Below, piece after piece: positions 11,235-29,390 of a stretch of 64,000 nucleotides of DNA (position 1 is the first letter of the stretch; every line of letters begins with the position of its first letter). The stretch is from Massilia antarctica (lineage in GTDB: Bacteria > Pseudomonadota > Gammaproteobacteria > Burkholderiales > Burkholderiaceae_D). The stretch is from assembly GCF_015689335.1 (NCBI RefSeq), contig NZ_CP065053.1:1736001-1800000 (forward strand), written 5' to 3'. Both the position numbers and the translations under genes were made by a program. The notes beneath the pieces were generated by a model. That model was not told the origin of the DNA. It did not search any database and was given only the letters and a program-made list of their open reading frames with translations.

Positions 11235-11330
11235 TGTGCACAAACAATAAAGTTTGACACAACCGCCTTAACAAAAACAACAACTTGCGAATTTCTTGCG
11301 GCGCCGCCACCGAAATAAAGTTTCGATCGG
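11235..11330. repeat. Left end of the Tn7-like element
   Basis: The terminal 27-bp site (11235-11261) is followed 50 bp inside by a second, weaker site (11311-11330, CGAAATAAAGTTTCGATCG). Dispersed sites at this end and tandem sites at the other match the asymmetry of Tn7 left and right ends. Confidence 0.7.
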
Positions 11331-11423
11331 TGTGGGCATGGTGGAGCACCTTTTCTATGAGGTAAATGTGATGATTGAACTAGGGGGTACGAAGCAGAGG
11401 TAGTGCAGCCTTGTGATTACTGG

Positions 11424-12098
11424 TCAGCCTGCGGTGAGCGCCTGATGTCCACGGAGATGCTGGCGGAATCGCTCGGCGTAGTCTTCTGTCACGGCGGCGG
11501 CAACGCTCGGTCGTGCCGCCAGTGCTGCCCGCCACGCCAACACGCGTGGAAGGCCCTCGAATATCGGCAGCGACACCGTCGGATCCACGATGTCAAAATA
11601 CCGAAAAAGAGGTGCGAACACCGCATCGACCATGCTGAAGGCTATCCCATTGAAATATGGCCCTGTCGCAAGCACCGCCTCCAACCGCTGGAGCCTGTCC
11701 CGGAACGCCGCCTTTTTTGCATTCGCAGTCGAGCGTTCCGATGCGTTCAGAAACTGCCAAGCGTCGGCAAGGGTCGCCGTGCCGAACTCAATCCAGCCCC
11801 GCTGCCGGGCACGAGAGAGTGCGTCGACTGCATACAGCGCCGCGCCGTCCTGAGTTTCCTCAAGATACTCGCAGATCGCCATGCTTTCGAAAAGGACGGA
11901 GTCCGCCCCATCTGCCTGCGCTACCTTGAGCAATGGCACCTTGCCGGTTGGCGACAGCGCCAGGAACCAGTCTGGCTTGGCCGCAAGATCGACATCGATC
12001 CGTTCAAACGGCACGCCCTTTTCCAGGAGAACGATCGCCGCCCGTTGAACGAACGGGCAAAGTGGATGGCTGATAAGGGTGAGGCTGGTATGGGGCAT
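11424..12098 (-). CDS. Glutathione S-transferase family protein
   Basis: A soluble 224-residue protein with an N-terminal thioredoxin-fold GST domain: HPLCPFVQRA places the active cysteine at residue 14 in CPF form, typical of beta/omega-like bacterial GSTs. The cis-proline GKVPLL and glutathione-contact FESMAICEYLE follow, then an all-helical C-terminal domain. It lies 33 bp downstream of the SDR gene on the same strand, so the two form an operon, probably in conversion of an electrophilic or xenobiotic compound. Substrate unknown. It is the first cargo gene inside the left end of the Tn7-like element. Confidence 0.88.
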   Translation of the reverse strand: MPHTSLTLISHPLCPFVQRAAIVLLEKGVPFERIDVDLAAKPDWFLALSPTGKVPLLKVAQADGADSVLFESMAICEYLEETQDGAALYAVDALSRARQRGWIEFGTATLADAWQFLNASERSTANAKKAAFRDRLQRLEAVLATGPYFNGIAFSMVDAVFAPLFRYFDIVDPTVSLPIFEGLPRVLAWRAALAARPSVAAAVTEDYAERFRQHLRGHQALTAG

Positions 12099-12131
12099 GG
12101 GTTCTCCGGAAAAAATACAGTCTCGATCGCG

Positions 12132-12890
12132 CTACAGCAACTGCCCACCCGAAACGTCGAAGGTCGTGCCGTTTGCCCACCCCATGTCGTCGGAAAGGAT
12201 GGCGGCCACCGCGCCGCCGACATCGTCCGGCAGGCCGACGCGGCCAAGAGCGATGCCCTGCGCCACATAAGCGTTCACATCGTCGTTGTCGCGCACCGCG
12301 CCACCGCCAAAGTCGGTCGCGATTGCACCGGGGGCGATCGCGTTCACCCGAATCCGACGCGCACCAAGCTCGACCGCCATGTACCGGGTCAATACCTCAA
12401 CCGCAGCCTTCATCGCCGCATAAAGGCTATATCCAGGCAATGTGAAGCGTACGAAGCCGGATGAGACATTCAGGATGCGCCCGCCGTCCTCGATCAGCGG
12501 CAGCAGCTTCTGAGTCAGGAACACCGGTCCGCGCAAATGGGTGCTGACCAGCGACTCGAATTGCTCTTCGGTTGCTTCGGCGAAATTGGAGAAAAGCCCG
12601 TTGCCAGCGTTGTTGACGAGAAAATCTAACCGCTCGCGGCCAAAATCGGCCTTCAGGGTTTGCGCCGCCTTTTCGGCGAATGCAGGAAAACTCGCCGTAT
12701 CGGTGACGTCGAGCGCTAGCATGGCGGCTTTGCCGCCCAGCGCCTCGATCTCCTGACGCAGTGCGTCGGCTTCGGACACGCCGCTGCGGTAGGTACCGAT
12801 GATGTAAACGCCACGTTTGGCGAGATGCAGCGCCATGTTGCGGCCGAGGCCACGACTGGCGCCGGTGATAAGTGCGATTTGCTGGGTCAT
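12132..12890 (-). CDS. Short-chain dehydrogenase/reductase
   Basis: A 252-residue classical SDR using NAD(P). The cofactor motif TGASRGLG (residues 9-16), NNAG (93-96), catalytic serines SS at 143-144 and YAAMK (Tyr157, Lys161) are intact, and the C-terminus ends NGTTFDVSGGQLL as usual. I chose the ATG at 12890 (MTQQIALITG); the longer open frame upstream overlaps the divergent AraC gene and has no family similarity. Operon with the GST gene; the AraC regulator is divergent across 171 bp. The substrate cannot be told. Confidence 0.9.
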   Translation of the reverse strand: MTQQIALITGASRGLGRNMALHLAKRGVYIIGTYRSGVSEADALRQEIEALGGKAAMLALDVTDTASFPAFAEKAAQTLKADFGRERLDFLVNNAGNGLFSNFAEATEEQFESLVSTHLRGPVFLTQKLLPLIEDGGRILNVSSGFVRFTLPGYSLYAAMKAAVEVLTRYMAVELGARRIRVNAIAPGAIATDFGGGAVRDNDDVNAYVAQGIALGRVGLPDDVGGAVAAILSDDMGWANGTTFDVSGGQLL

Positions 12891-13061
12891 TGGGTTGCCT
12901 TGATGAAAAGTTACGCTGCAATCGGTGCCGTCCAGGCACCCTCGCGCTTGCTTCGATATTAAGTTGTCGACAGCGCGACCGACAGGCCAGATACGCTCAA
13001 TATATTGCCCGATTGTCTCAATCCACTTTGTCGAACGGGTAGACCATGGCATTATTTGGAA

Positions 13062-13958
13062 ATGACTGACCACTTCGCCCAACACCTCGACATCGCGCTA
13101 CGCCATGCGCCATCAGCGGTAACCATTTCACCTATCCCACGCCTGGAGATCAGCGTGGGGCAGGCGAGCACCGACAAAGCGCCGTGCCTATACCGCTCGA
13201 TGATTTGCTTCATCCTCCAGGGTTCCAAGCAGGTGCAGATCAACGATGCTCTTCTGAGCTACAACCCTGCGCATTACCTCATCAGCGCTCTGGAGCTGCC
13301 GCTGACCGGCCAGATCCTCGATGAGAAGGACGGTCGCCCCTATGTCGCAGTGTCGCTGATTCTGGACCCCGGCCAGTTGGCCGATGTCGCGGCCACCATG
13401 CCGCAGGTGCGCGATGCCGAGCCGCAGGGTATCGGTATCGCGATCAATCCGATGACAGCGCCACTGCGCGACACCTTGCTGCGGCTCCTGGCGCTGCTGG
13501 ACACCCCGGTCGACATCCCCGTGCTCGCTCCCATGGCGGAGCGCGAATTACTCTATCGTCTCCTGCAAGGCCCGCAAGGTCGTCTGCTGCGCCAGATCGC
13601 CCAACCCGAAGGTACGCTGGATCGCATCCGGCGAGCGGCGGGATGGATAAGAGACAATCACAACACCCGCTTGCGCATCGAGGCGCTATGCGAAGCAACC
13701 GGCATGAGCCGCGCCAGTCTGCATCGCCATTTTCAGGCGCTGACCGGGCTCAGCCCGCTGCAGTATCAGAAACAGCTTCGGTTGCAGGAAGCGCGACAGC
13801 TGTTGCTCGCCGGTGACAGCGCATCGGAGGTTGCCTACGCCATCGGCTACGAGAGCGCCTCGCAGTTCAGTCGCGAATATCTCCGGCAGTTCGGCGCGCC
13901 GCCAGCGCGCGACGTCCGTCGGATCAGAGCGGCCATCGGCAGCCCCGGCAAGGCCTGA
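13062..13958 (+). CDS. AraC-family regulator with AraC_N-type sensor domain
   Basis: A 298-residue regulator. The N-terminal region (SAVTISPIPRLEISVGQAS, ICFILQGSKQVQINDALLSY) is the cupin-like AraC_N domain of YqhC-type regulators. The C-terminal 95 residues carry the double helix-turn-helix (LRIEALCEATGMSRASLHRH, VAYAIGYESASQFSREYLRQ). The ATG at 13062 is preferred over the extension to 13005. It is divergent from the SDR-GST operon and convergent with the esterase, so it probably controls the SDR-GST pair; in this family reactive aldehydes or similar ligands are frequent signals, which is only a suggestion here. Confidence 0.88.
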   Translation: MTDHFAQHLDIALRHAPSAVTISPIPRLEISVGQASTDKAPCLYRSMICFILQGSKQVQINDALLSYNPAHYLISALELPLTGQILDEKDGRPYVAVSLILDPGQLADVAATMPQVRDAEPQGIGIAINPMTAPLRDTLLRLLALLDTPVDIPVLAPMAERELLYRLLQGPQGRLLRQIAQPEGTLDRIRRAAGWIRDNHNTRLRIEALCEATGMSRASLHRHFQALTGLSPLQYQKQLRLQEARQLLLAGDSASEVAYAIGYESASQFSREYLRQFGAPPARDVRRIRAAIGSPGKA

Positions 13959-13964
13959 GCGCGA

Positions 13965-15395
13965 TCAGGGTCTCTCGATGCCTTCGAAGGTCTTGAGGAC
14001 CTCGACCGCATGGGTGGTCGCGTCATAGGGCAAGTTGCCGATCCCCCGGGTGGTTGGTTTCGTGGTGACAGCAGTCCAAAGGCGGCCCCTGTTTCCTTCT
14101 GCGAAATCCAGGAGGGTGTCGCGGATGAAGGTGTCGCGGACAATCTGCTGCGCACTTGCGCCTGGACGCTCCTGTCCGACAATGCCGTACATCTCGGTGC
14201 CGTGCACCGCGTGCGCCCCTTCGACCGGGCCGACCGAAAGCAGGTGTGCGTTTCCGCCGGCCGCGGCATGCGCCAGCGCGGCGCGGACATGCGGCAGTGT
14301 AAAGGAGAAGTCGGTGAGTAGTGCCCCGCGGACTTCGATGGGAGTGCGGCCATCGATGTCGTACGCGGCGATGATCGCACGGGCGCGACTGCGTGGGATC
14401 CGGTTCCTCGCAGCAAATTCCTTGACGAGTTCGCTGATGCTGCCGGGATCGAAGTCGTCGGTCTTGTGCAGGACCCACCAATCGGTCTCATGGGTGGTGC
14501 TGCTCAAAAAGATGTCGATGTCCCGGTGACGTCCGGACTCGAGGACCCGCAGGGGATGGTGCGCGATAACGCCGCCCGGCTGGGAGTGGTCGTCGACGAT
14601 GGCGATGACAGTGTTATCGATGCCGTGCCGTGCACCTGGATCCGCAAGTTGCGTCTTGCTCATCGTCTCGGCGAGCAACATTGCGTCGATATTCAAAAGC
14701 TGCTCGGGATCGTCTTGAATTCCCAGCCTGGTGAGCACCTCAAGCGCTCGTTCTTCCGCCCCCCACGCCGGCACCAGACGTGACGCCATGCCGGAGAACG
14801 CAGCGAGGCGGCGATAGAGGCCATCGGCCGACGGCGCCGCGAGCAGGCTGAGCGTGGCGAAAGCGCCCGCGCTGTGGCCGGTGACGGTAACGTTGTCCGG
14901 GTCGCCGCCGAAACGGGCGATGTTCACCCTTACCCATTGGAGTGCGGTGATGATGTCCTGCAGACCGAGGTTGGTGGCGTCCGCGAAGACGCCCCCGTAC
15001 TGAGAGAGCGAAAGCCACCCGAACGGGCCAAGCCGGTAGTTCAAGGACACCCCGACGGCGCGGCCGGTCGTGGCGAGACCCGAGGCGTTCGAGGTGGTCT
15101 GGGTGTTTGCGCCGAGCTCGAAGCCACCGCCGAAGATATAGACGACCACGGGGAGCGGTTCATTGCCAACGTCTTCGGGTGCCCAGACGTTCAGGTTCAG
15201 GCAGTCCTCGCTGAAACCGTTGTCGGCCTCGAGCCAGCCAGTGTCGCCGGCTTGCATCGGGGCAGCTCCCTTTTTGTCGTAAGGCAGATCCGGGTTGAAC
15301 GGCAGCAAGGTGGGGCGACGAAAACGCTCTGCGGCGGCGTAAGGGATGCCTAGCCAGGAGCGGATCGAGCGGGCAGCGGTATCCGTATCGGTCAT
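13965..15395 (-). CDS. Type-B carboxylesterase
   Basis: An alpha/beta-hydrolase of 476 residues in the para-nitrobenzyl esterase/cholinesterase family. SEDCLNLNVWAP is the type-B signature, YIFGGGFELG is the oxyanion-hole region and GHSAGAFA supplies the nucleophile serine near residue 176; the usual GESAG is GHSAG here. The start at 15395 has the context MTDTDTAARSIRSWLGIPYA, beginning directly at the substrate-gating segment. No signal peptide, so it is cytoplasmic. It ends 6 bp from the AraC gene in convergent orientation. The substrate is unknown. Confidence 0.88.
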   Translation of the reverse strand: MTDTDTAARSIRSWLGIPYAAAERFRRPTLLPFNPDLPYDKKGAAPMQAGDTGWLEADNGFSEDCLNLNVWAPEDVGNEPLPVVVYIFGGGFELGANTQTTSNASGLATTGRAVGVSLNYRLGPFGWLSLSQYGGVFADATNLGLQDIITALQWVRVNIARFGGDPDNVTVTGHSAGAFATLSLLAAPSADGLYRRLAAFSGMASRLVPAWGAEERALEVLTRLGIQDDPEQLLNIDAMLLAETMSKTQLADPGARHGIDNTVIAIVDDHSQPGGVIAHHPLRVLESGRHRDIDIFLSSTTHETDWWVLHKTDDFDPGSISELVKEFAARNRIPRSRARAIIAAYDIDGRTPIEVRGALLTDFSFTLPHVRAALAHAAAGGNAHLLSVGPVEGAHAVHGTEMYGIVGQERPGASAQQIVRDTFIRDTLLDFAEGNRGRLWTAVTTKPTTRGIGNLPYDATTHAVEVLKTFEGIERP

Positions 15396-15486
15396 GTGGT
15401 TGTTTCTTCCATTGAGGTTGCGCGATGAGGCGACGTGCGGCGGGGGACACTGGCTTGTCGATGTCCAGTGCTCATCAAACCGTTGA

Positions 15487-18400
15487 CTACCAAGCCAGCC
15501 CCTTGGGCGCGCTGGAGAACCCAATGGCACGAAGCGCCGCGCAAAGAGGGCTCTTGTAAGTCGATTGATCATCCACGAGTTCCAGGGTGAAGGTTCCATG
15601 CTGTTCCCTTTTCAGTGCAATTGCCAGTGCGGTTAGGCCTGCGGCAAGCGGCCTGGCCATGTCGACGGCATCCGCATCACCATAGCTGAGCAAGTGACGC
15701 CCGCCCTGAGCGAGGTAGAACATCAGGCATCCGTCGACCAAGACGACGAAAGCCCCGGTGCGACGCGCCGGGCGCACGTTCGATGGATGAGAGGGCCAAG
15801 GCAGCAACGTTCCGAAGGGATTGGCGGGGTCTGCCGCGGACAGCGGCACTGCAACGGGTTCCCCCGGAGGCGCAGCGGCGAGTTCACGCAAGCGATCGAC
15901 GGTGACGCGCTCGGCGAACTGGGCTGCCCCCAGGCCTTCGACAAAACGTCCGCGCAGCACCCGGCCGGCGTCCTCCATGCCGCGCAACACCGGTCGCAGC
16001 GCCGGGAAACCGCCGGGGATGTCCTCGGTCATCGCCGCACTGCGCGTGACCACGCCATAGCGGTCGAGAAGCCCCTCCACCCGCGCCAGCGCCCGGGTGG
16101 TGTCGTTCACCGGCTCGGGGTGCAGCAGCGACCAGCGGCCTGCGAGGGTCGGATCGCTGAGTGTCGGCACAGACGCCACAGATGATGTCGCCTCGGACAT
16201 GCGCTCGTTGTAGGACACCCCGCGCAGCCCTCTGCGTCGCCGCGAGGCTTGGATGGGGCGTGGCCGCGGTGCCGAACGTGCACCGCAGTAGGCCCGCAGG
16301 GGCGACCAAGTGTCGGCGGTGATATGACCGGTCCAGGCCAGGTTCCAAAGCGCCTCGTGGATCTCCGAAGGCGTAGGCGCCGGCTCTCCAGACTGCAGGC
16401 GGCTCGCCGCCAGCGCCATGAGCTGGCGCACGAAGTACGCGCCGCCGTTGGCCAGGCTGGCGAGCAGCTCCTGTTGCAGGGCCGGCAGATGGGCTGCCGG
16501 GGCGGCGTCAGGCGATGGCGACAGGGTCTCGGCGGCACATTCCTGGAGGTGAAACGCGACGAGTCCATCGTTCTCGCCGAGCCGTCCGTGTCCGGACCAG
16601 AGCACCGTGCCCGTGGCGATCAGCTCGTCGAGCATGCCCGGGGCGTAGTCCCGCACGCGGGAAGGAAACACTTGGCGTTCCCACAGAGACGCCGGAAGCG
16701 CCACGCCGGCCAGTTGTTCGATAACGCGGGTCACCCCGTCTATTCCGACAAGTGCACCACCGCCCGCATCGCGGCCGGAAACCGCTACATTGCCCGCGAC
16801 CTCGGGCACCAGACCCTGGCGCTCCAACAGCAAGCGTGTATAGGCCGGTTGCGGCACCGGCCGGGTAGCCTCGCGGGCGGCCTGCAAGGAACGCAGCCGC
16901 AGGCGCTTGAACACCTCGTCGCCCACCCATTCATGGCGTGCCAGCGGATGGACACTGCCCTCAGGCGTCTGCGCTTCGAGGCGGCTCTCGACGCCGAAAT
17001 TGCCTTTCAGCAGCTTGCCCAAGCCGGACAACTGCTCCAGTGCCTCGTCCGCCACGGCGACGCCGAGGCCGAAACGGCGCGCGGCTTCGCCGGTGCTGAA
17101 CGGCGCATGGGTGCGGGCGTAGCGTGCGACCAAATCGCGCAGTGGCGCTTGCGTCGGCCCCAGGAAGACCTCGGGCAGACCGGCTGGCAAGGTGATGCCG
17201 AGCGCATCGCGCAGCCGGGCGGCATCCTCGACGGCAGCCCAGTGGTCGCGGCTGGCAATCGTTACGCGAATGGCGCGCCCCTCGCGCTCCAGGTCGGCGA
17301 GGTAGGCCCGGGCATTTTCCCCGTCGCTGAGCCGCTGCGTCATGTCTTCCGTGGTCAGTGGCCCGAGCAGGCGCAGCAGATCCGCAACCCCTTCCATGCC
17401 CTTGGCCTGATGGCTGGGCACGAGCCGCTGCAGTTCGCCCCCTACGTGATTGATGATGACCGGATCGAGAAGTTCTCCCAAGTCGACCTGGCCGAGAAGA
17501 TCGGCGAGCAAGCCGCTGTCGAGCGCAAGAACCGAGGTGCGCCGCTCGGCCAGCGGGGTGTCGGTCTCGTACATAAACTCCGCCACGTACCCGAACAGCA
17601 GGCTCGCGGCGAAAGGAGAAGGTACTTCCGTGGTGACCTCGGCAATCTGCACCGCACCGTCCTGCAGACGCTGCATCAGTGCATCGAGTGCCGGCAGGTC
17701 ATAGACGTCTTGCAGGCACTCGCGCGCCGTTTCGATCAGGATCGGAAAATCAGGGTAGCCCTGCGCGATCTGCAACAACTGCCCGGCACGCAGCCGTTGC
17801 TGCCACAGCGGCGAACGGCGCCCGGGCATACGGCGCGGCAGCAGCAGTGCCCGCGCTGCGCATTCGCGAAAGCGTGCGGCGAACAGCGCCGAGCCAGCCA
17901 CGGCATCGGTGACGGCTTTGCGCAGGGTCTGCGGATCGCAGAGGAACAGTTCGGCGCCGGGCACACGGCCGGCAGTATCGGGTATGCGCGCGATGATGCC
18001 GTCGTCGCTGGCGACGACCGAAGGATCGACCTTCAAGCGCTGGCGGATGCGCTCGGCGATGGCCAGCGCCCAGGGGTCATGCACGCGCCGCCCGTAGGGA
18101 GAGTGCAGGATGACTCGCCAGTCCCCGGTCTCATCGCGGCAACGCTCCAACACCAGGGTGTGGTCAGTGGGCAACATGCCGGTCGCCTCGCGCTGCTCGC
18201 CGGCCAGCTTGAGCAAGTTGTTCATCGCATTGCGGTCGAGCCCGGCCGCCTCCAGACGTTGCTTCAGCGCGGGGTCGATGTCCAGGCTGCCATCGGCCCT
18301 GGCAGCGCCTTCCAGCAGCGCAAGGAAGGCACCGATGGCCTCACCCAGTTCGGCCGGCCGACCCAACCCGTCGCCGCGCCAGAATGGCAGGCGGGCCGAG

Positions 18401-20262
18401 CGTCCCGGGGCTGGCACCACGACCACCTGGTCGTTGGTGATCTGCTGGATCCGCCAGGAGGACGTTCCCAGGGTGATGATGTCGTTCACTTTCGATTCGT
18501 AGACCATCTCCTCGTCGAGCTCGCCGACCCGGCGCGAACCGGCCTGTTCCACGCCTTCGGGCAGGACCACGCTGAACATGCCCCGGTCCGGGATGGTGCC
18601 GCCGCTGGTGACAGCCAGTTGCTTGGAGCCCGGGCGCGCGCTCAGCTGGCCCGTTTCACGGTGCCACACCAGGCGCGGGCGGAACTCGACGAATGCGTCG
18701 GAGGGATAGCGCCCAGCCAGCATGTCGAGCACCGCATCGAACACACTGCGCGACAAGGTGTGGAACGGTGCTGCGCGCCGCACCGTTGCATACCAGTCAT
18801 CGACATTGACTTCTTCCATGGCAACCGCAGCCACGGTCTGTTGCGCCAGAACGTCGAGCGGATTGCGTGGCGGATCGATGGCCTCGATGCGTCCGGCCAG
18901 CATGGAGTCAATGGTGACGGCGGCGTCGACCAGGTCGCGCCGGGTGCGGGGATAGATCAGCCCGGCCGAGGTGCCGCCCACCTGGTGGCCGGCTCGGCCG
19001 ACACGCTGCAGAGCACTCGCCACTGAAGGGGGCGCGGCGACCTGGATCACCAGTTCGACCATGCCCATGTCGATGCCCAGTTCCAGGCTGGAGGTCGCTA
19101 CCACACAACGCAGTTCGCCCGACTTCAGCGCCTGCTCTATTTCGCCACGTTGCTCTTTGGAGACCGAGCCGTGGTGGGAGCGGGCGATCAGTGGCGCGAC
19201 ACCCGCGGACCGGCTGTCAGTGCCGCCAACGGAAGATGGGTAGTGAATGGCGGTATCGCCGGGCGCTGCCGGTGGGGAGGCGTCCTCCTCAGCCAGGCGC
19301 TCGGCATAGAGTTCATTGAGACGCGCGGTCAATTTCTCGGCGAGGCCGCGCGAGTTGGCAAACACGATCGTCGAATGCCGGCGCAGCACCTGCTCGAGGA
19401 TGCTGGCTTCGATATGGGGCCATATCGAGCCTTGCCTGTCCGGGAGGCCATCTCTGGCAGTGGTGCTGTTGCGGGGTGGAATGTCGGCCATGTCCTCCAC
19501 GGGCACCACGATGCGCAGGTCGAACTGGCGGCAAGAGGGCGGGTTCACCACCGCCACCGGCCGCGATCCGCCCAGGAATTGCGCGACCCGGTCCACCGGA
19601 CGCACCGTCGCCGACAACCCGACGCGCTGCGCCGGCGCCGACAGCAAGGCATCGAGGCGCTCCAGGCTGAGCGCCAGATGCGAGCCGCGCTTGCCGCCCG
19701 CGACTGCATGGACCTCGTCCACGATCACGGTCCGTACGCCGCGCAGGGTTTCCCGCGCCTTGGACGTGAGCATCAGGTAGAGCGACTCGGGCGTGGTGAT
19801 GAGGATGTCGGGTGGCCGACGCAGCAGACGCGCGCGCTCGGACGGTGGCGTGTCGCCGGTACGCATGCCGACCTTGATCTCTACGGGGGGATCGCCACGG
19901 CGCTTGCGCTGTGCGGTGATGCCCTGGAGCGGGTCGCTCAGGTTGCGCTGTACGTCAGTGCCCAGCGCCTTGATCGGCGAGATGTAGAGGATGCGTGTCG
20001 CCGCCTTGGTGACGCCAGCCGCGGTCCCGTCCTGCGCCTCGCGCTCCCGAAAGAGCTGGTCGATGGCTTGCATGAACGCTGCCAGCGTTTTGCCCGAACC
20101 CGTGGGCGCGATTACCAGCGCGTTCTGGCCGCCGCCAATAGCCGCCCACGCCGCCGCCTGTACGGCCGTGGGCGACGGGAACGCGGAGCCGAACCAGGCG
20201 CGGGTGGCGGGCGCGAAGTGTCCGAGCGGGTCGGCCTTCGCTGTGTCCGGAAGCTCCATCAT
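15487..20262 (-). CDS. lhr: Lhr-type ATP-dependent DNA helicase
   Basis: A 1591-residue superfamily 2 helicase of the Lhr 'large helicase-related' class, slightly longer than the 1538-residue E. coli protein. The N-terminal half has motif I APTGSGKT (about residue 52), DEVH (about 181), SAT in motif III, and motif VI QRVGRAGH (about 418), then the Lhr winged-helix and core domains. The C-terminal half contains the family block AGRWSLL near residue 1370. Lhr proteins unwind DNA or RNA:DNA hybrids and act in DNA damage responses. Genes for TfoX, MmcQ-like and SnoaL-like proteins follow upstream on the same strand and may be co-transcribed. It is cargo of the Tn7-like element. Confidence 0.93.
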   Translation of the reverse strand: MMELPDTAKADPLGHFAPATRAWFGSAFPSPTAVQAAAWAAIGGGQNALVIAPTGSGKTLAAFMQAIDQLFREREAQDGTAAGVTKAATRILYISPIKALGTDVQRNLSDPLQGITAQRKRRGDPPVEIKVGMRTGDTPPSERARLLRRPPDILITTPESLYLMLTSKARETLRGVRTVIVDEVHAVAGGKRGSHLALSLERLDALLSAPAQRVGLSATVRPVDRVAQFLGGSRPVAVVNPPSCRQFDLRIVVPVEDMADIPPRNSTTARDGLPDRQGSIWPHIEASILEQVLRRHSTIVFANSRGLAEKLTARLNELYAERLAEEDASPPAAPGDTAIHYPSSVGGTDSRSAGVAPLIARSHHGSVSKEQRGEIEQALKSGELRCVVATSSLELGIDMGMVELVIQVAAPPSVASALQRVGRAGHQVGGTSAGLIYPRTRRDLVDAAVTIDSMLAGRIEAIDPPRNPLDVLAQQTVAAVAMEEVNVDDWYATVRRAAPFHTLSRSVFDAVLDMLAGRYPSDAFVEFRPRLVWHRETGQLSARPGSKQLAVTSGGTIPDRGMFSVVLPEGVEQAGSRRVGELDEEMVYESKVNDIITLGTSSWRIQQITNDQVVVVPAPGRSARLPFWRGDGLGRPAELGEAIGAFLALLEGAARADGSLDIDPALKQRLEAAGLDRNAMNNLLKLAGEQREATGMLPTDHTLVLERCRDETGDWRVILHSPYGRRVHDPWALAIAERIRQRLKVDPSVVASDDGIIARIPDTAGRVPGAELFLCDPQTLRKAVTDAVAGSALFAARFRECAARALLLPRRMPGRRSPLWQQRLRAGQLLQIAQGYPDFPILIETARECLQDVYDLPALDALMQRLQDGAVQIAEVTTEVPSPFAASLLFGYVAEFMYETDTPLAERRTSVLALDSGLLADLLGQVDLGELLDPVIINHVGGELQRLVPSHQAKGMEGVADLLRLLGPLTTEDMTQRLSDGENARAYLADLEREGRAIRVTIASRDHWAAVEDAARLRDALGITLPAGLPEVFLGPTQAPLRDLVARYARTHAPFSTGEAARRFGLGVAVADEALEQLSGLGKLLKGNFGVESRLEAQTPEGSVHPLARHEWVGDEVFKRLRLRSLQAAREATRPVPQPAYTRLLLERQGLVPEVAGNVAVSGRDAGGGALVGIDGVTRVIEQLAGVALPASLWERQVFPSRVRDYAPGMLDELIATGTVLWSGHGRLGENDGLVAFHLQECAAETLSPSPDAAPAAHLPALQQELLASLANGGAYFVRQLMALAASRLQSGEPAPTPSEIHEALWNLAWTGHITADTWSPLRAYCGARSAPRPRPIQASRRRRGLRGVSYNERMSEATSSVASVPTLSDPTLAGRWSLLHPEPVNDTTRALARVEGLLDRYGVVTRSAAMTEDIPGGFPALRPVLRGMEDAGRVLRGRFVEGLGAAQFAERVTVDRLRELAAAPPGEPVAVPLSAADPANPFGTLLPWPSHPSNVRPARRTGAFVVLVDGCLMFYLAQGGRHLLSYGDADAVDMARPLAAGLTALAIALKREQHGTFTLELVDDQSTYKSPLCAALRAIGFSSAPKGLAW

Positions 20263-21481: not shown

Positions 21482-21539
21482 ATGGTCTCTCCCAGTCAGT
21501 TGGCACTCCATCAAGCGCGACAGGGAGCCGATGCTGCGT

Positions 21540-21971: not shown

Positions 21972-22114
21972 TACGAATTTCTTTCAGTAGCTGAAAATGG
22001 TATTCTCTAACAATGGACTTGGTGAATCAAGACAAAATAAGCCCATATTAAGACACTTTTCGGACATATTTGGAAACCAATGCACATCTTTCGCAGCTGT
22101 TGTGAAGTGAACCG

Positions 22115-23050
22115 ATGAAAAGATCGGGGCGGCACGTACAGGAAATCCGCTACCAGCCCGAAGGGTCGTATCCCTACGACCTGGAGGTCTTCCGGGTCTC
22201 GGAGCTCCGGCGCAGGACCAGCCGAGAGGGAATGCGCCGAACATACGGCTATACGTTCTACATGCTGATCCTGGTGACCGAGGGACAGTGCATCCAGTTG
22301 CTGGACTTCGAGCCCTGCGCCGGCCAGGCCGGTAGCCTGGTCGTGGTTCGCCCAGGACAGGCCCATAACTTCGGAGAACGTGAGGACTGGGACGGCTGGA
22401 TACTGCTGGTGCGCCCGGAGTTTCTCTGGCCCGCCTCATCGGACGAGAGCCTGCGTTCGGAGTTCAACATTGAGCGCTTACCGACGTGCCTAGAAGTCGA
22501 TACCGACGGCCTGACGCGCGCAACAACCGCCATCGAGTGGATGCGGCAGGACGCCGCAGCTCATGACCCGGATGGCTCGGGTCCAGCGCGGCGAGATCGT
22601 GGCCGGTCTGCCGAATGGGTCGAGGCCGTGCAGGCGCATCTGCGCCACGCGCTCTACGCGCTGGTGTCCTGGCTTGTCGTGGCCTACGGCGACGAACACC
22701 TGGAGCAACCACGCAAGCGGCCGGCGCTCAAGCGCTTCCATCTGTTCAAGGAACTGGTGGAGCAACACTTCACTGAGTGGAAGGACATCGGCACTTACGC
22801 CGCCGAATTGAGCTGCACGGAAAGAAGCCTGACGCGTGCGGTGCTCGACGCCAAGGGCATCAGTGCCAAGGAATTCGTTTTGAGGCGACTGAGCCTAGAG
22901 GCCAAGCGTCTTCTCATACACACCGATTGGCCCGTCGGCGTCATTGCCGGCAAGCTCGGATTCAAGGAGGCCACGCATTTCAGCAAATTCTTCCGAAGCA
23001 CGGTTGGGTGCACGCCCTTGCAATTTCGATTCACCGACGGACACGGATGA
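22115..23050 (+). CDS. AraC-family transcriptional regulator
   Basis: A 311-residue regulator with an N-terminal cupin ligand-binding domain (YTFYMLILVTEGQCIQLLDF, GSLVVVRPGQAHNF) and a C-terminal AraC helix-turn-helix (TYAAELSCTERSLTRAVLDA, GVIAGKLGFKEATHFSKFFR). It diverges from the SnoaL-like gene with 143 bp between starts; this AT-rich gap must contain both promoters. By position it would control the SnoaL-MmcQ-TfoX-lhr group. The middle region (residues 120-190) is less conserved. The ligand is unknown. Confidence 0.87.
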   Translation: MKRSGRHVQEIRYQPEGSYPYDLEVFRVSELRRRTSREGMRRTYGYTFYMLILVTEGQCIQLLDFEPCAGQAGSLVVVRPGQAHNFGEREDWDGWILLVRPEFLWPASSDESLRSEFNIERLPTCLEVDTDGLTRATTAIEWMRQDAAAHDPDGSGPARRDRGRSAEWVEAVQAHLRHALYALVSWLVVAYGDEHLEQPRKRPALKRFHLFKELVEQHFTEWKDIGTYAAELSCTERSLTRAVLDAKGISAKEFVLRRLSLEAKRLLIHTDWPVGVIAGKLGFKEATHFSKFFRSTVGCTPLQFRFTDGHG

Positions 23051-23194
23051 AATGAAATCGAACGTGTTCCTCCTTATTCTATTCGCTCGCTTCACTCGGC
23101 CAGAGAGCGTAGTGGGTTGAGCAGTTCAAGCCGCCCGAAGTCAGCGATAGGAGCGCCCTTTTCCTGTGACTTCAGCTCTTTCTGACTGCTGTGG
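23051..23194. other. Spacer between AraC gene and IS3 remnant
   Basis: No gene seen; debris boundary between two cargo blocks. Confidence 0.4.
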
Positions 23195-23315
23195 TCAAGT
23201 AACTTCGGACACCACGATAGGTTCCCGTGCTGTCCTTTTTCGTTCGTAGATAGCGGGCGGCAGATTGCCCAATGCTGAATTAATTCGCTTGCAGTTGTAG
23301 TGGAGTGGTTCAGTT
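23195..23315 (-). pseudogene. IS3-family transposase C-terminal remnant
   Basis: Read on the minus strand, this gives LHYNCKRINSALGNLPPAIY followed by ERKRTAREP and a stop at 23195. That is the end of the IS3 integrase core, where YN..R.HSALG..PP..Y is conserved. The rest of the transposase is missing. It differs from the full IS3 copy at 26335-27968, so an older insertion left it. Confidence 0.6.
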
Positions 23316-23370
23316 GTTCCAAAAGCGGCTACCGGTCGGCTTCTATCAGGCCCGTTCTATCCAATGTCGG

Positions 23371-23799
23371 CTATTCGACCGCCCAATCTTGTACCAGCAA
23401 ACGTTCACGGATGCCTGGATCGGTTATTGCCGAGCGATGCTTTTTTTCACCAGAGCTAAGACTAGGTGTTCTCAAAAGATCGACTGTGGCTTCAAACCCA
23501 TGGCCTACGGTTTCAATCTCAAGGCAAGCCAACAGCTGGGCGCCTTGATATAAAATCAGCATAGGCAGATTCTCTGGTTGATAGTCCCCGATGAATTCGC
23601 CATGTTCTACCAGATCCAGCCACAGCCACGTTTCGTCTAACAAGGGATGGTCAGCGTAGAGGTCGAATTGTACGCGGACGTCCCGGCACCGGGAGCACCA
23701 TTCTGTAGCGCCGATAATGATGTAGACACGGGCGTTCGTACACTGCAAGCGCTGCGCCAGGATACTTGCATCGTCCCAAGGATTGAGTGGTCTACTCAT
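23371..23799 (-). CDS. Thioredoxin-like protein
   Basis: A 142-residue protein with a thioredoxin-fold signature: YIIIGATEWCSRCRDVRVQF carries a WCxxC pair and ENLPMLILYQGAQL carries the cis-proline strand. There is no signal peptide, so it acts in the cytoplasm. Its ATG overlaps the stop of the upstream HEAT-repeat gene (ATGA), showing translational coupling and a shared job. The function is not known; similar small thioredoxin-like proteins accompany contractile-tail or type VI secretion accessory clusters, but nothing here proves that. Lower GC than the core genes. Confidence 0.7.
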   Translation of the reverse strand: MSRPLNPWDDASILAQRLQCTNARVYIIIGATEWCSRCRDVRVQFDLYADHPLLDETWLWLDLVEHGEFIGDYQPENLPMLILYQGAQLLACLEIETVGHGFEATVDLLRTPSLSSGEKKHRSAITDPGIRERLLVQDWAVE

Positions 23800-25154
23800 C
23801 GCACTTCCTCGTCGATTAACAGGCGTCGTAACTGCTTGATGGTTGCAAGTTGATCTTCGATCCGTCCACGCGGCGCCAGCTTTATTTGCGGATAACACTG
23901 GCGCAGGAAGTGACTGGCCACGCTACGGTGGGCCTGCGGTGCCGTTTCCAGCACCGCGACAGCGAATAGTGGAGTCAAACCCTGACCGGACAGGCAGCGC
24001 TGGCGGGCAGGCAGATGGGCCGTGGAATAGCGCGCAATCGCCTCCATATCAGGCAGCGGCAACCCGTGATCCGCATCCGAGCGTGCTTCGCTTATCCCTG
24101 CGCTATCACCCGATAGCGCAGGTTCAGGCAGCGTCAAACCTGCCGATTCCAGGTCCACGCCGGTGATGGTCTGCCATACCCAGCCGGCATAGCGGCTGGT
24201 GTCCGGGTGCGACATCTTGGCGATTGCGTACGCCAGATGGGCCGAATCGCCGTGATAGGCAACAAAGTGCAAACTGATCCGAGGCGGCATGAAGTCCAGC
24301 AGAGCGGGAATTTTGTCGTGCCCGAGCGGAATCATCGTCGCCAGGTTTCGCACCCAACGCCGGAGCCTGCGTAGTGCCTGGTGGCGGTACCAGCCCGTTG
24401 ATTCGTTGGACACAACGACTTGCTCGACCACGCACTGCCAGACGGTGTTTGCGAGCGCAATATTCCCCTCGTCGTTGCCCCTGGGTGCCTGACGGGCGAG
24501 AGCGTGGAGCGCGATGGCAGCCTCGGCGCGTACTGCCATGGCGGGATTGACAATGCAACGTGTCAGCGCCGCTTCAAGCAGGGGGCGATGCGGCACTGTC
24601 GCGGCAACACGGCACGCAGCGGCACAGATATGTGCATCCGAACTGTATAGGAAGTCCTCGACAGGCTGGCCAAGCAGGCCTACAGCATTGGCATCCAGCA
24701 GCGCGGCCGCGCGCAGCGCCGCGACCTGCTGGATGACTTCAACATCGGCACCGGTCCAGCGCCGGACGATGCTTGCTACCTGTTCTGGCGGCCGCCAGGC
24801 AAGCGCGCTGATCACGCCGCGTAGCAGTTCCTCCGGGCGTGCGCGAACCTGCACCAACAATGCCTCCATGGCGACAGGCTCGTTGAGACAAAAAACCTGA
24901 TGGGCATAAACGAAAGCGCCAGCGGCCTTTCTCCAACGTTCAAGAGCGGCCAGGCAAGGCACCAAGCCGTCCTGCCCGGCGACTTGCAGGCCCTCGAGAT
25001 GGGCATCGAGCATGTCGCCAAACCGGGTCAAGCCATCGAGACTCAAGCGTGGCGTAATCACGGAGCCATCAAGCAGCGCCCAATAAAATGCCGCGTCTTC
25101 GGCATGCCGCCGAATAAGTGGCGCAATAATTCTGGGAATGGGTAGTGTCGTCAT
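23796..25154 (-). CDS. HEAT-repeat protein, TIGR02270-like
   Basis: A 452-residue protein of repeated helical pairs (for example VIQQVAALRAAALLDANAVG, AAACRVAATVPHRPLLEAAL, AVRAEAAIALHALAR), resembling the TIGR02270 family of uncharacterised proteins. Such proteins are found next to type VI secretion accessory genes in proteobacteria; no secretion gene is visible here. The C-terminal part contains GVDLESAGLTLPEPAL and ends at the ATGA overlap with the thioredoxin-like gene. It lies 24 bp downstream of the propeller-like gene, making a three-gene operon. Molecular function unknown. Confidence 0.65.
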   Translation of the reverse strand: MTTLPIPRIIAPLIRRHAEDAAFYWALLDGSVITPRLSLDGLTRFGDMLDAHLEGLQVAGQDGLVPCLAALERWRKAAGAFVYAHQVFCLNEPVAMEALLVQVRARPEELLRGVISALAWRPPEQVASIVRRWTGADVEVIQQVAALRAAALLDANAVGLLGQPVEDFLYSSDAHICAAACRVAATVPHRPLLEAALTRCIVNPAMAVRAEAAIALHALARQAPRGNDEGNIALANTVWQCVVEQVVVSNESTGWYRHQALRRLRRWVRNLATMIPLGHDKIPALLDFMPPRISLHFVAYHGDSAHLAYAIAKMSHPDTSRYAGWVWQTITGVDLESAGLTLPEPALSGDSAGISEARSDADHGLPLPDMEAIARYSTAHLPARQRCLSGQGLTPLFAVAVLETAPQAHRSVASHFLRQCYPQIKLAPRGRIEDQLATIKQLRRLLIDEEVR

Positions 25155-25178
25155 TGGGAGAGCACTCGGCCTGCGCGC

Positions 25179-26153
25179 TTAGGCGGCAAAAGGAGAAACC
25201 AAATTTGTCCATGCCTGTCCATCGAAGCTCTTAACGTGCTGCGGACTCGCGATGGCAAGCAAGCCATCGAACACATCCATATGTCCCCAGATCGATACGG
25301 TTTTTCCCTCGTGCTCGACCGGAATGAGTTCCTTGCCGTCCCACTGACGGAATTGGTAATCGGACGATAACCACAGCCGGTTCTGAAACCACAAGACGTC
25401 ATTCCAGAGAATGCTGGAGGTGCCGTGGTAAATCGATTTCCAGGTCGATTTTTCTCCCATCCAAAGACTGCCCCCTTCGCCCGAAATATACACGTTGCCG
25501 TCACCTGCGCAGGTCACTGTGGCAAGCTGCACATTGCTGGGGAAACCCATCTGCTTCCATCGTGCACCATCGTAATGCCATACATCGCCATGCCCACCCA
25601 CTGCATACATGTCGGATGGGGAAAACGCGTCAAGATCACGAAATCCTTGGCCTGTCGTGACCTCAACCGTTGGAAAACCGTCCTGGAACGGCACCCATTT
25701 TCCGACTTCGACGCGCTTGTATACGGCACGGCCAGCGCCAACCGAATAGGTGACGCTGCCGATGCACTTGAGCTTCTCCGGAAATGGCGACTTGCCGGGC
25801 GCAATATGCTCCAACGGGCCGTTACCGTTGCCGCGCGGCCAAACATCACCATCGCGGTTCTTTGAAGCGACAAGGCCGCTAGGGCGCGGAAACGGTGCGC
25901 GAGCAACACCGACCACCGGATACGCCATCCCTTCCAACTCCTGATAGCCGCAATTATCCCCAGTCGGGCGTCCGGTGAACAGTGAAATGATGCGCGTGGG
26001 AATCTGCGAATCGAACAAGAGCGATGCCTCATGAAGGGGGGTTTTTTTTCTGGCACACATTTGCAGGATGCCCTTTTCCTGGATCGCCAGATCGACGATT
26101 TCAAAATCCGAGAACACTTCGGTCCAACGTTTTTCATCTAAGAATGGGTTCAC
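25179..26153 (-). CDS. Putative beta-propeller protein of unknown function
   Basis: A 324-residue protein I cannot place in a named family. Its middle and C-terminal parts show repeats of about 40 residues with SPSDMYAVGGHGDVWHYDGA, DGNVYISGEGGSLWMGEKST, NRLWLSSDYQFRQWDGKELI and FDGLLAIASPQHVKSFDGQA, typical blades of a propeller. The start is GTG at 26153 with AAGGAG six bases upstream. There is no signal peptide. It opens an operon with the HEAT-repeat and thioredoxin-like genes. GC is about 55%, below the core genes, as expected for recently acquired cargo. Confidence 0.6.
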   Translation of the reverse strand: MNPFLDEKRWTEVFSDFEIVDLAIQEKGILQMCARKKTPLHEASLLFDSQIPTRIISLFTGRPTGDNCGYQELEGMAYPVVGVARAPFPRPSGLVASKNRDGDVWPRGNGNGPLEHIAPGKSPFPEKLKCIGSVTYSVGAGRAVYKRVEVGKWVPFQDGFPTVEVTTGQGFRDLDAFSPSDMYAVGGHGDVWHYDGARWKQMGFPSNVQLATVTCAGDGNVYISGEGGSLWMGEKSTWKSIYHGTSSILWNDVLWFQNRLWLSSDYQFRQWDGKELIPVEHEGKTVSIWGHMDVFDGLLAIASPQHVKSFDGQAWTNLVSPFAA

Positions 26154-26176
26154 AATGAACTCCTTTGAAATTTGAT

Positions 26177-26338
26177 GTGATTACGATCGACGGAAGTGTA
26201 CCTCGCAATCCTGCCGGCCCCTCTGACTTCCAATGGGATTGCGTCTTCATCCCGGATGGTTACACTCAGACGTTCGCTGAGATGGGAGCGGCGAAGGACG
26301 AGATCTCGATGCGCCGCAAACGGAAATTTGCAAGCTAG
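26177..26338 (+). pseudogene. Remnant of a HAM1/RdgB-like NTP pyrophosphatase
   Basis: The plus-strand frame reads [18 protein letters not shown] then DEISMRRK, the C-terminal signature of non-canonical purine NTP pyrophosphatases (compare the family pattern DPVFxPxGxxxTFAEM). Only about 53 codons remain. The N-terminus is missing on the left, and the left inverted repeat of the IS3 element cuts the frame, supplying the TAG stop at 26336. Confidence 0.6.
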
Positions 26339-26358
26339 TTGTCGCCTAAACGCGGTTT

Positions 26359-27447
26359 CTATGCTGCTTTTTTGAGTTCTGGATTTTTCTCCTTTTTGGT
26401 GACGGTCTCCGTGACACTTTTTTCCGGATTGAGGTGCACGGTCGTGACTGGCGCCCAGCTTCGCGTGTCGCCACTCCAGCGCTCCGGGCGCTCGGCCTTG
26501 GCCGCCTCATAGACCTCCGTACGTTTGCGCAGCAGCTCGCCATCCAGGCCCGCGTGCCGCTGTGCCGGCGTGACGAACTGGATGGCACTGTGACGGTGCT
26601 CCTCGTTGTACCAACGCACGAACGTGCCGACCCACTGCCGCGCGGCCATGAGGCTTTCAAATGAGCGCTGCGGGTAGGCTGGGCGGTACTTGAGCGTTTT
26701 GAAGAGGCTTTCGCTGAAGGGGTTGTCATTGCTACACGCGGGCCGACTGAACGATGGGACGACGCCGAGCTTTTGCAGCGTTGCAAGCATGGTGGCACCC
26801 TTCATCGGACTGCCGTTGTCAGAGTGCAGCACCACCTGTTTTGGCGCGATATTTTCACGCAAACAAATATCGCGCATCACCTCGCTGGCTAGCTCGCTGC
26901 TTTCCGATTCGTAGACCTGCCAGCCGACGATCTTGCGGCTGTAGATATCCATGAAGAGGTAGAGATAGAAATAGATGCCCATGACCGTCGTCGGCAGATA
27001 GGTGATGTCCCAGCTAAACAGCTGGCCCGGTGCTGTTGCCACCAGCGCACGGGGCTTGTGGCGGGGTTTTGCCGGCTTCTCGGCCCCACGGTGCTTGAGC
27101 TGGTTTGCCGCGTTCAGCAAGCGATAGAACGTCGACTCCGAGGCGACGTACTCGCCCCGGTCGACCAGTTGTGGCACGATCTGGCTTGGTGGGAGGTGGC
27201 CGAATTCGGGTGAGTTGGCGATCTCCAGTACGCGCTTGCGTTCCAGATCGCTCAGGCGGTTCTTGGGTGTCTGCACCCGTGCCGGCCGTCGATCACAAGC
27301 CCCCTCAGCTTTGTCGTTCTGCCAGCGCTGCAAGGTCCGCTCGCTCAGCGTAATCACCTCGCAGGCCCGCCACTGGCGCGCGCCGGAACCGACCGCCTCG
27401 GCCACCAAATCCATCACCTGGTCGCGCTGCGGGAGGTCGGTCATCAT
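26359..27447 (-). CDS. IS3 transposase OrfB (DDE integrase core)
   Basis: The 362-residue catalytic subunit. The DDE residues are visible in WDITYLP (first Asp), VLHSDNGSPM (second Asp) and NDNPFSESLFKTLKYRP (Glu), followed by WYNEEHRHSAIQFVTPAQRH. The N-terminal part has a helix-turn-helix (SERTLQRWQ). The ATG at 27447 overlaps the OrfA stop as ATGATGA, so OrfB can be made by coupled re-initiation; a frameshifted fusion as in other IS3 elements remains possible. The gene looks intact. Confidence 0.9.
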   Translation of the reverse strand: MMTDLPQRDQVMDLVAEAVGSGARQWRACEVITLSERTLQRWQNDKAEGACDRRPARVQTPKNRLSDLERKRVLEIANSPEFGHLPPSQIVPQLVDRGEYVASESTFYRLLNAANQLKHRGAEKPAKPRHKPRALVATAPGQLFSWDITYLPTTVMGIYFYLYLFMDIYSRKIVGWQVYESESSELASEVMRDICLRENIAPKQVVLHSDNGSPMKGATMLATLQKLGVVPSFSRPACSNDNPFSESLFKTLKYRPAYPQRSFESLMAARQWVGTFVRWYNEEHRHSAIQFVTPAQRHAGLDGELLRKRTEVYEAAKAERPERWSGDTRSWAPVTTVHLNPEKSVTETVTKKEKNPELKKAA

Positions 27448-27929
27448 TCCTCGTCCTCCCACAGCGCGCGGAACTTTTTTTGCAGGATCAGCAACGCGGC
27501 CGCCTCCGCCAACGCGCCATTTTTGCGCACAATCTCGCGCTCGAGCTTTGCAACCTTGTCCTTCAAAGTGCGCATTTCGCGCACGCCCGTTGCGGGCTCT
27601 TTTACCTCTCCGCAGAAGGCCGCCTCCCAGCTGGTCAGATGATGGGGGAATATGCCGTGCTCGCGGCACCACGCCTGCAAAGCCTCGTCGGACAAGCCAT
27701 GGGTGGCCCGCAATGCGGCAAACTGCTCCGCGGCAGTCCAGTCCTGAGGGCGCTTCTCGCGCGCCGTCGGCGCGTCCTTAATGGTCACAACTTTATTCTT
27801 CATCCAATATTTTAACGTGTGGTGATTCACATTCAGGTCTTCGGCGACCGACTTGACCGACCGGTGGCCTCGTGAATACACTTTGACCAGGGCTTGTTCG
27901 ATAAATGCTTCGGGATATTTTGATGACAT
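27444..27929 (-). CDS. IS3 transposase OrfA
   Basis: A 161-residue DNA-binding subunit beginning MSSKYPEAFIEQALVKVYSR with the helix-turn-helix SVKSVAEDLNVNHHTLKYWM, and ending in a leucine-rich coiled coil (LKDKVAKLEREIVRKNGALA). The C-terminal coiled coil is the IS3 OrfA dimerisation element. The ATG at 27929 is chosen; the open frame continues upstream beyond the inverted repeat but that part is not transposon sequence. Confidence 0.85.
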   Translation of the reverse strand: MSSKYPEAFIEQALVKVYSRGHRSVKSVAEDLNVNHHTLKYWMKNKVVTIKDAPTAREKRPQDWTAAEQFAALRATHGLSDEALQAWCREHGIFPHHLTSWEAAFCGEVKEPATGVREMRTLKDKVAKLEREIVRKNGALAEAAALLILQKKFRALWEDEE

Positions 27930-27968
27930 TGGTGCCTCTATATATTGAAAATTAGAGGCGATAACTAG

Positions 27969-28256
27969 TTCCGTCGCTGGCCGTGGGCCAAGCATCGGAG
28001 TCCGTCCTGCTCGAACAAGAAATCGAAAACCTGACGTCTTGAGGGAACGGGTTCCGCTGCGCTTCACCCGTAACACCCGTCCCCCGCTCCCGGAAACGAT
28101 GTTAGAAATAAGGCACAAGAACGAACCCTAAACCCCACCACAACGATCAAGATCAGGACATAATTTGTTCAAAAACACACCCGACAAGTAGTCTGACACA
28201 GGGGGCAAAGCACTCGACTTGTTTGCCGCTCACCTCAAGTCTACAAAGGGTACAAA
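27969..28256. other. Spacer between the IS3 element and the SIR2 gene
   Basis: No complete gene. A plus-strand frame ends SESVLLEQEIENLTS with a stop near 28042 and may be the tail of a gene removed by the IS event; I cannot name it. The promoter of the SIR2 gene must lie within 28140-28256. Confidence 0.4.
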
Positions 28257-29051
28257 ATGAAAGATGAACTGCTTGATGCGCATCGCATGGGCAAGCTGAT
28301 GTTGTTTGTGGGCGCAGGAGTGTCTGCAAACCTTGGTCTGCCCACTTGGAACGCTTTGATAGCGCACATCGCGGAGGAGCTAGGGTACGATCCAAAGATC
28401 TTCGCTACCTACGGGACTCCTTTGGCCCTTGCTGAATTTTACAAGAAGCAAAAGGGCGGGCTCGGGCCGCTGCGCAGCTGGATGGACCGTGAATGGCATA
28501 AGCCAACAACGAACATCTCCATGTCCGACATTCACCGACTGATCACACAGGGTAATTTCTCCCGCATCTACACCACCAACTACGACCGATGGCTGGAGTA
28601 CGCTCACGATGCGTTTGGCGTAAAGTACCACAAGGTCGCCAGTGTGGCCGATCTTGCTTCCGTAATCGATGGTCGCCGGCAAATCATCAAGTTTCATGGT
28701 GACTTCGATGCAGACGACTCGATCGTCCTTGACGAGACCAGCTATTTCCAGCGGCTGAATTTCGATACGCCGCTAGATATCAAGCTCCGCAATGACGTGC
28801 TGGGCAGTTCCGTTCTCTTCATTGGCTACAGCCTGAACGATCTGAACATTCGCCTCCTGTTCTATCGCCTGACCGAGATGTGGGGTCGATCTACCCTTGC
28901 GTCCGCAAGGCCGAGGTCATATATCTTCACCAATCGACCAAACCCGGTGGCGCAGGAAATCCTGAGCCATTGGGGAATCCAGATGATCGTTTCGGAAGAG
29001 GACGACCCAGAAAAAGCGCTTACGGAGTTTCTTCAAGAGTTGGTCACCTGA
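28257..29051 (+). CDS. SIR2-family protein, putative NAD+-consuming defence protein
   Basis: A 264-residue protein that is essentially one SIR2-like domain. MLFVGAGVSANLGLPTW (residues 15-31) is the NAD-binding GAGxS motif, followed by IYTTNYDRWLE, IIKFHGDFD (the histidine position of sirtuins) and GYSLNDLNIR. The zinc-binding cysteines of protein deacetylases are absent, as in SIR2 domains of anti-phage systems that degrade NAD+. A second effector or sensor gene is not adjacent, so it would be a single-gene system. It lies next to the right end of the Tn7-like element, a usual cargo position. Defence activity is inferred from family and context only. Confidence 0.75.
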   Translation: MKDELLDAHRMGKLMLFVGAGVSANLGLPTWNALIAHIAEELGYDPKIFATYGTPLALAEFYKKQKGGLGPLRSWMDREWHKPTTNISMSDIHRLITQGNFSRIYTTNYDRWLEYAHDAFGVKYHKVASVADLASVIDGRRQIIKFHGDFDADDSIVLDETSYFQRLNFDTPLDIKLRNDVLGSSVLFIGYSLNDLNIRLLFYRLTEMWGRSTLASARPRSYIFTNRPNPVAQEILSHWGIQMIVSEEDDPEKALTEFLQELVT

Positions 29052-29343
29052 CTTTGAATATCACCAGGTGAACGACGGTCCCTGGTCCCTGCCGGAAGCT
29101 GGGGGTATCTGCGGCTAAAAGCTAACGAGATACCGCAGTCAGTCACTGATCGCTAGCAAGCTTTGGAGGTAATTACAGAGGAAAGGTCGATCGCCTCCTC
29201 GCAGCGGAAAGCAGACGATCAAGGTACTCACTCTACAATTGTTTCAACGGCTCCACCCTCCGGCAATGGGCCGGACGGTGGACCCGGATGAACCTTACTG
29301 TTTTCCGTCTGACTTTCTTGGTTGCACTCACCGTTATTCTCGC
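29052..29343. other. Non-coding region inside the right end of the element
   Basis: In Tn7 this is where tnsA begins. Here there is no open frame of note, only scattered short inverted repeats (GCTAAAAGCTAACG region) and a weak terminal-site-like ACAATTGTTTC at about 29242. tns genes have either been deleted or were never present. Confidence 0.5.
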
Positions 29344-29390
29344 TGTGTCAAACTTAATTGTTGTGTGTCAAACTTAATTGTTCGTGCACA
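29344..29390. repeat. Right end of the Tn7-like element (tandem TnsB-like sites)
   Basis: Two direct copies of TGTGTCAAACTTAATTGTT (29344-29362 and 29364-29382) with a 20-bp period, then CGTGCACA ending at 29390. The outer 27 bp are the inverted partner of 11235-11261. Overlapping or tandem sites at the glmS-proximal end are the hallmark of Tn7 right ends. Confidence 0.75.

Follow-up and report, generated by a model that had tools for sequence, protein, structure and literature searches.

A Tn7-like island without tns genes at the attTn7 site of Massilia antarctica

Introduction

Transposon Tn7 and those of its relatives that use TnsD insert beside the glmS gene, and insertion of Tn7-like transposons is accompanied by a 5-bp duplication of the target. 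Decayed Tn7 elements at this site may have been reported before. In the laboratory, mini-Tn7 constructs, in which cargo is placed between Tn7-type ends without any tns gene, are targeted to attTn7 and mobilised by tnsABCDE genes encoded on a helper (excerpts of PMC4321384). Natural tns-less or miniature Tn7-like elements are not described in the literature searched, among the matches listed and in the excerpts which these provided. Here, we analysed a stretch of 64,000 nucleotides from Massilia antarctica (assembly GCF_015689335.1, contig NZ_CP065053.1, positions 1,736,001 to 1,800,000 of the forward strand; hereafter the window), in which positions 11235-29390 had been predicted, from the letters alone, to be a Tn7-like element lacking recognisable tns genes. 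We consider it practically certain that this 18.2-kb block is a tns-less Tn7-like island at attTn7.

Like Tn7 and the Tn7-like transposons with TnsD, the island lies beside glmS, at a spacing of 24 bp, within the 23-26 bp that 9 of 14 right-type ends examined show. Unlike them, it contains no tnsA, tnsB, tnsC or tnsD, and the genome that carries it gives no match to TnsA, TniQ or full-length TnsB. It shares with laboratory mini-Tn7 the arrangement of cargo between Tn7-type ends, the absence of tns genes and the attTn7 target, but it is natural and 18.2 kb long. Below, numbers preceded by G, C and L are our designations of genomes, contigs and loci, respectively.

Results

The two ends of the island form a 27-bp inverted repeat: 11235-11261 has 25 matches to 29364-29390 read on the other strand, the same count as in the original prediction. 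The left end (11235..11323, + strand) contains TGTGCACA and a TnsB-like site at 11243-11253, with a degenerate second site recognised by eye near 11313, while the right end (29292..29390, - strand) has TnsB-like sites at 29372-29382 and 29352-29362 and degenerate inner sites in 20-bp phase. Tandem sites at the right end had also been predicted, and they proved to be two exact 19-bp copies at a spacing of 20 bp. The left sites read AATAAAG and the right sites AATTAAG; the left-end core is presumably the TnsB-site core of classical Tn7, as had been stated originally. The right boundary is situated 24 bp from the glmS stop codon, as had been claimed, which is a TnsD-type position. The attTn7 target gene itself, glmS, is the open reading frame 29415..31349 (- strand), whose start, judged by eye, is likely near 31244. 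TTCGA (11230..11234) and GTCGA (29391..29395) border the island as a putative target duplication, identical at four of the five bases.

When the host genome (7.43 Mb, one contig) was searched with the end motif at up to three mismatches, just these two copies were found (reversed control, 0). In a sample of 392 family genomes, the motif was present in 33, the reversed control giving 0 of 392. We regard a chance origin of the end pair as excluded. The left end is 91% identical over 89 bp to an end in G363 and 86% identical over 64 bp to a small element of G336; when sought among plasmids, it had no match. The 3' end of glmS was detected in 40 of 40 genomes searched, the host included. The G+C content is 0.613 inside the island and 0.59-0.614 outside, and does not mark it.

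Immediately to the left of the island, at 11193..11232 (- strand), we found a right end of a second type, belonging to an older Tn7-like element; this end is absent from the original prediction and composed of two 20-bp sites, AACAATAAAGTCGGTCGG. All 40 bp are identical to glmS-adjacent DNA of G181, and 92% identity over 39 bp is seen in G159. Since the left flank of the island is a second-type right end, Tn7-like elements are stacked at glmS. It had been expected that an empty site in relatives should keep one copy of a sequence like GTCGA. The flanks, joined with one copy of the duplication, do align to DNA downstream of glmS in G159 and G181, but the duplication is TTCGA/GTCGA and not exact GTCGA. 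The alignment to G159 ran gap-free over 60 columns from its start and had a gap of 3 bp beside the stop codon; when the right flank was shuffled 2000 times, the real score was reached once. The alignment to G181 needed a 3-bp gap; 11 of 2000 shuffles scored as high, the best of them above the real score. In view of these shuffle results, the support from the empty site is fair, short of overwhelming.

Homologues of window positions 1-6023 are located about 2 kb from glmS in G148, as against 23 kb in the window, and the segment between about 6 and 29.4 kb is therefore a variable, layered insertion site. In G192 the layers occur in reverse order, 6 bp separating a left end of the second type from a right end of the first; P450 and AraC genes follow this junction, and the same pair, 97% identical, is present at 6.5-9.5 kb of the window. 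From 5 kb of the window onward, at up to two core mismatches, no left end belonging to the older, second-type element was found. The AraC and cytochrome P450 block of the window (6315-9536) is 97% identical to G192:C208, the similarity ending sharply at 9536, and a gene for an MFS transporter occupies the interval between 9536 and the second-type end. About 31 kb from the second-type left end of G192:C208 (L309, L148), near the start of the contig, there is a divergent TnsB-like gene, and this second-type element is perhaps tns-bearing. A 935-bp element with second-type ends and without target duplication lies near glmS in G148 (L063:18200-19134).

The claim that the cargo contains none of tnsA-D was borne out, as neither Pfam scans of the island proteins nor tblastn with the G244 proteins revealed a tns gene or remnant in the 18.2 kb. 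Searching the whole window by tblastn with TnsA, TnsB, TnsC, TnsD and the second TniQ protein of G244 returned nothing at E 1e-4. In the host genome the TnsA and TniQ models remained unmatched and no full-length TnsB was found (TnsC was not searched genome-wide); the single match to the TnsB profile, which recognises TnsB of Tn7 (PDB 7pik) at E=1.5e-101, is a short protein encoded elsewhere and devoid of the catalytic domain. The TnsA and TniQ models had no match in 14 control genomes. The negative result for TnsA is informative, because this model matched 8 of 38 genomes.

A tnsABCD set with the same ends, which according to the original prediction was to be sought, is thus not found in the host by these searches, but it occurs in relatives. 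From the right-type ends seen in fetched stretches, 14 were picked by hand. Nine of them are positioned 23-26 bp from glmS (G000, G244, G070, G212, G314, G125, G092, G018 and G303), and for the other five glmS is absent within 900 bp outside. Three of the nine genomes (G244, G092 and G018) have a TnsA match, and the elements of these three show tnsABCD similarity in their interior. In G244, a same-type right end lies 23 bp from glmS, and beyond it are arranged tnsA, tnsB, tnsC, tnsD and another TniQ gene, the frames of tnsA-D being open; G092 resembles it, its tnsA match being in two pieces. In G018, the right end (1872413), 26 bp from glmS, and the left end (1899335) are 26.9 kb apart and bordered by an exact GCTGC duplication, and tnsABCD similarity lies between them. 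As an intact element it was rejected, since tnsB is split over reading frames. In G070, G212 and G314 the right end stands at glmS, and no left end was found over about 49 kb. All 33 end-bearing genomes, several of which are drafts, were searched for TnsA, which was matched in eight; the TnsB profile matched nothing in 15 of the 33, and several others match it through a solo protein alone.

This solo TnsB-derived gene is located in the host at C1:6968404-6969243 (L278:3905-4747), and further loci are L279, L280, L281, L282, L283 and L275. Its frame spans 280 codons, translation probably beginning about 38 codons downstream of the first; it matches TnsB of Tn7 at E=1.6e-20 and has no catalytic domain. 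G192 and G148 share its gene neighbourhood, and so does G363 on the single side covered; in G363, too, the solo frame stops before the catalytic domain. Relatives are present in 92 of the 392 family genomes at E<=1e-10 and in 80 (the host included) at <=1e-50, G231 having 1.3e-50; 11 weaker matches resemble ordinary TnsB. In genus g40 the open frames of the relatives are mostly about 590-730 codons long, a few being shorter. In G336, G303 and G247 the gene adjoins, by eye, a DEAD-box helicase gene, and the second catalytic aspartate is missing in all three. To judge from these sequences, the solo gene is probably domesticated. Domesticated TnsB is not described among the matches listed in our literature search, as far as their excerpts extend.

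Ten elements with both ends were recognised in the fetched stretches, namely the island, the G018 element and eight small ones, a count biased to short elements as most of these stretches are 20 kb long. An exact 5-bp duplication borders the small elements of 1603, 2083, 2341, 1489 and 256 bp (the last at L293:9748-10003), a 4/5 duplication those of 2190 and 682 bp (the latter at L299:9370-10051), and the 271-bp element (L292:9495-9765) has both ends and no duplication. Over all ten, six have an exact duplication (the G018 element and five of the small ones), three a 4/5 duplication (the island and the 2190- and 682-bp elements) and one has none. Both ends of the 2190-bp element are left-type. 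No tns similarity was detected in the eight small elements, G018 alone showing it, and the fetched stretches yielded no further large element that has both ends and lacks tns. A pair of ends in L095 (757 bp, both left-type, duplication 2/5) was not accepted as an element. Movement in trans probably occurs in this family, and because small tns-less units have moved in it, such movement is a real option for the island.

The part of the island near its right end carries a broken gene cassette. A fragment of the Ham1-like gene komB (26184..26318, + strand, residues about 126-169) is present without its 5' part and without komA. It is followed by an IS3-family insertion sequence lying within komB (26319..28204, - strand, NF033516; boundaries set from the intact komB of G118), by the 3' end of komB (28205..28256, + strand, from comparison with intact komB) and by a komC-like SIR2-domain gene (28257..29051, + strand, Pfam SIR2_2). 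With komA lost and komB deprived of its first two thirds, the komC-like gene is the sole intact member; it is 90% identical to the G118 copy and 71% to Pantoea plasmids. In G118 (L308:6670-9064), intact adenosine deaminase, Ham1-family and SIR2 genes adjoin one another, and beside them are further genes, defence-related by eye. We take the order of deaminase, Ham1 and SIR2 genes to be the Kongming arrangement, and assume KomA to be deaminase-like and KomB Ham1-like. The island resembles Kongming (KomA-KomB-KomC) in having a SIR2 gene adjoining a Ham1-like gene, and differs from it in the absence of komA and in the truncated, IS3-split komB. Excerpts of two papers describe a dITP signal and NAD loss in Kongming (PMC12774641, PMC12948488).

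The original prediction considered decay following an IS3 event. The two komB parts are contiguous across the insertion sequence, overlapping by 3 bp, and no komB sequence has been lost at this point. Being a simple insertion into komB, with no deletion abutting it, IS3 does not account for the absence of tns. A separate deletion scar, apart from IS3, lies at about 26160-26184.

In total, the island carries about 14 cargo genes in 18.2 kb, the number given originally. From the left end, and as assigned by Pfam, they encode a glutathione S-transferase (11424..12098, - strand), a short-chain dehydrogenase (12132..13085, -), an AraC-type regulator (13005..13958, +) and a carboxylesterase-family protein (13965..15599, -), the starts of the last three being uncertain. 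These are followed by an Lhr-type helicase of 1591 aa (15487..20262, -; also NCBIfam NF007284), a TfoX N-terminal domain protein (20269..20619, -), a YjbR/MmcQ protein (20732..21514, -), a SnoaL-like/DUF4440 protein (21540..21971, -) and another AraC-type regulator (22115..23050, +). A 110-bp repeat at 23191..23300, copies of which (85-92%) are found in a number of family genomes, some at contig ends, is probably the end of an insertion sequence. Next come a protein thioredoxin-like by eye (23371..23898, -), which has no Pfam match and groups with the next two genes in G159, a TIGR02270-like protein with a profile match below the cut-off (23796..25154, -), and a protein of unknown function (25179..26153, -), whose 62-68% relatives stand beside TIGR02270-like genes in G111, G159, G181 and G385.

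Conserved synteny of the cargo across the genus, named originally as a point that would speak against a transposon, was looked for and not found. The cargo did not occur as one block in the genus sample, and a 14.8-kb cargo query had no same-genus DNA match longer than about 1.4 kb at E 1e-30. Relatives of Lhr in the genus sample are all divergent (a long piece 33-35% identical, short pieces at most 53%); the closest among 80 loci kept from the named collection, at 66-67%, are from Pectobacterium and a Stenotrophomonas metagenome-assembled genome. The three-gene TIGR02270 cassette, or two of its genes, does have relatives (43-68%), in G111, G159 and G181.

Discussion

The original prediction allowed that the element had either been moved in trans as cargo only or decayed after an IS3 event. 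Its identity as a tns-less Tn7-like element at attTn7 stands, and neither of the two routes is proven. Loss of the tns genes after arrival appears to us somewhat more likely than arrival without them, with a probability that falls a little below an even chance. According to this explanation, a TnsABC transposase directed by TnsD would have inserted a Tn7-like element at attTn7, TnsD binding the 3' end of glmS and TnsB pairing both ends, as expected from the family. The element would have landed on the older, second-type right end already present beside glmS, and its tns genes would have been lost subsequently, a candidate site being the junction at about 26160-26184, from which komA and two thirds of komB are gone. 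Signs of decay argue for such a loss, namely the missing komA, the truncated and IS3-split komB, and the right ends without a left end in G070, G212 and G314.

Several observations weigh against this explanation. No tns remnant was found, hence the loss is deduced from absence. The duplication is 4/5 rather than exact. In G244 the tns genes begin beside the right end, where the island has komC. The G018 element, with its tnsB broken across frames, is therefore also decayed. The TniQ model was tried on relatives as single proteins only, not on genomes known to hold TniQ, which makes this negative result weaker than that for TnsA. Finally, nine of the ten two-ended elements, in a count biased to short ones, are without tns, and this favours arrival without these genes.

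A lesser, though still serious, possibility is that the island arrived as a cargo-only, non-autonomous element, the ends of which were worked in trans by TnsABCD of another element, as in a natural mini-Tn7. The eight small tns-less elements with similar ends in the family, seven of them with an exact or 4/5 duplication, point in this direction, as does the occurrence of TnsA in just 8 of the 33 end-bearing genomes and the lack of any TnsB-profile match in 15, several of the 33 being drafts. The mobilisation of laboratory mini-Tn7 by helper-encoded tnsABCDE, described in excerpts of PMC4321384, is consistent with it. On the other hand, no second large two-ended tns-less element was found, the island is internally decayed, it is present as a single copy in its own genome, where the unit was not seen at a second place, and the 2190-bp element has two left-type ends. 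Moreover, some Tn7-like branches transpose without tnsA (excerpts of PMC8649781), and for this reason counts of TnsA only overstate the number of missing transposases.

We regard as improbable a hybrid origin, in which two successive TnsD-directed insertions would have hit the same base pair, the earlier one leaving the left end and the later one the right end, and recombination would have removed what lay between these ends. Such an origin would suit the stacking of Tn7-like ends at glmS in the genus, exemplified by the 6 bp between the second-type left end and the first-type right end in G192, and the difference between the left (AATAAAG) and right (AATTAAG) sites. However, the ends agree at 25 of 27 positions, and no internal end was found in 11235-29390 at up to two core mismatches, save the right-end sites and isolated matches at 12111 and 27800. 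The target duplication does not separate loss from a hybrid, because repeated insertion at one base pair leaves the same duplication. That ordinary chromosomal genes merely lie between chance repeats is hardly credible. The similar G+C content inside and outside would allow it, but the ends, the empty site, the relatives and the failure to find the cargo as a block in the genus sample contradict it, and the motif in 33 of 392 genomes (control 0), the joining of the flanks and the spacing to glmS refute it in practice.

Surveys that start from tns genes overlook islands which keep just their ends, whereas the search starting from the ends yielded tns-less elements between 256 bp and 18 kb in size. 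In this genus, successive Tn7-like insertions of at least two end types can accumulate at glmS. If movement in trans is true, the flow of Tn7-type cargo exceeds what transposase counts suggest. A broader view, which we find rather unlikely, is that the family hosts non-autonomous elements with Tn7 ends, 256 bp to 18 kb in size, carried by passing TnsABCD, and that the TnsB-derived protein of many hosts, in which the catalytic domain is absent or lacks the second aspartate, may bind, restrain or steer these ends. This conserved protein, having no functional catalytic domain, is a candidate for host control that can be put to the test. As neither TnsA nor full-length TnsB was found in the host, the island would be fixed in M. 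antarctica unless a related tns-bearing element enters.

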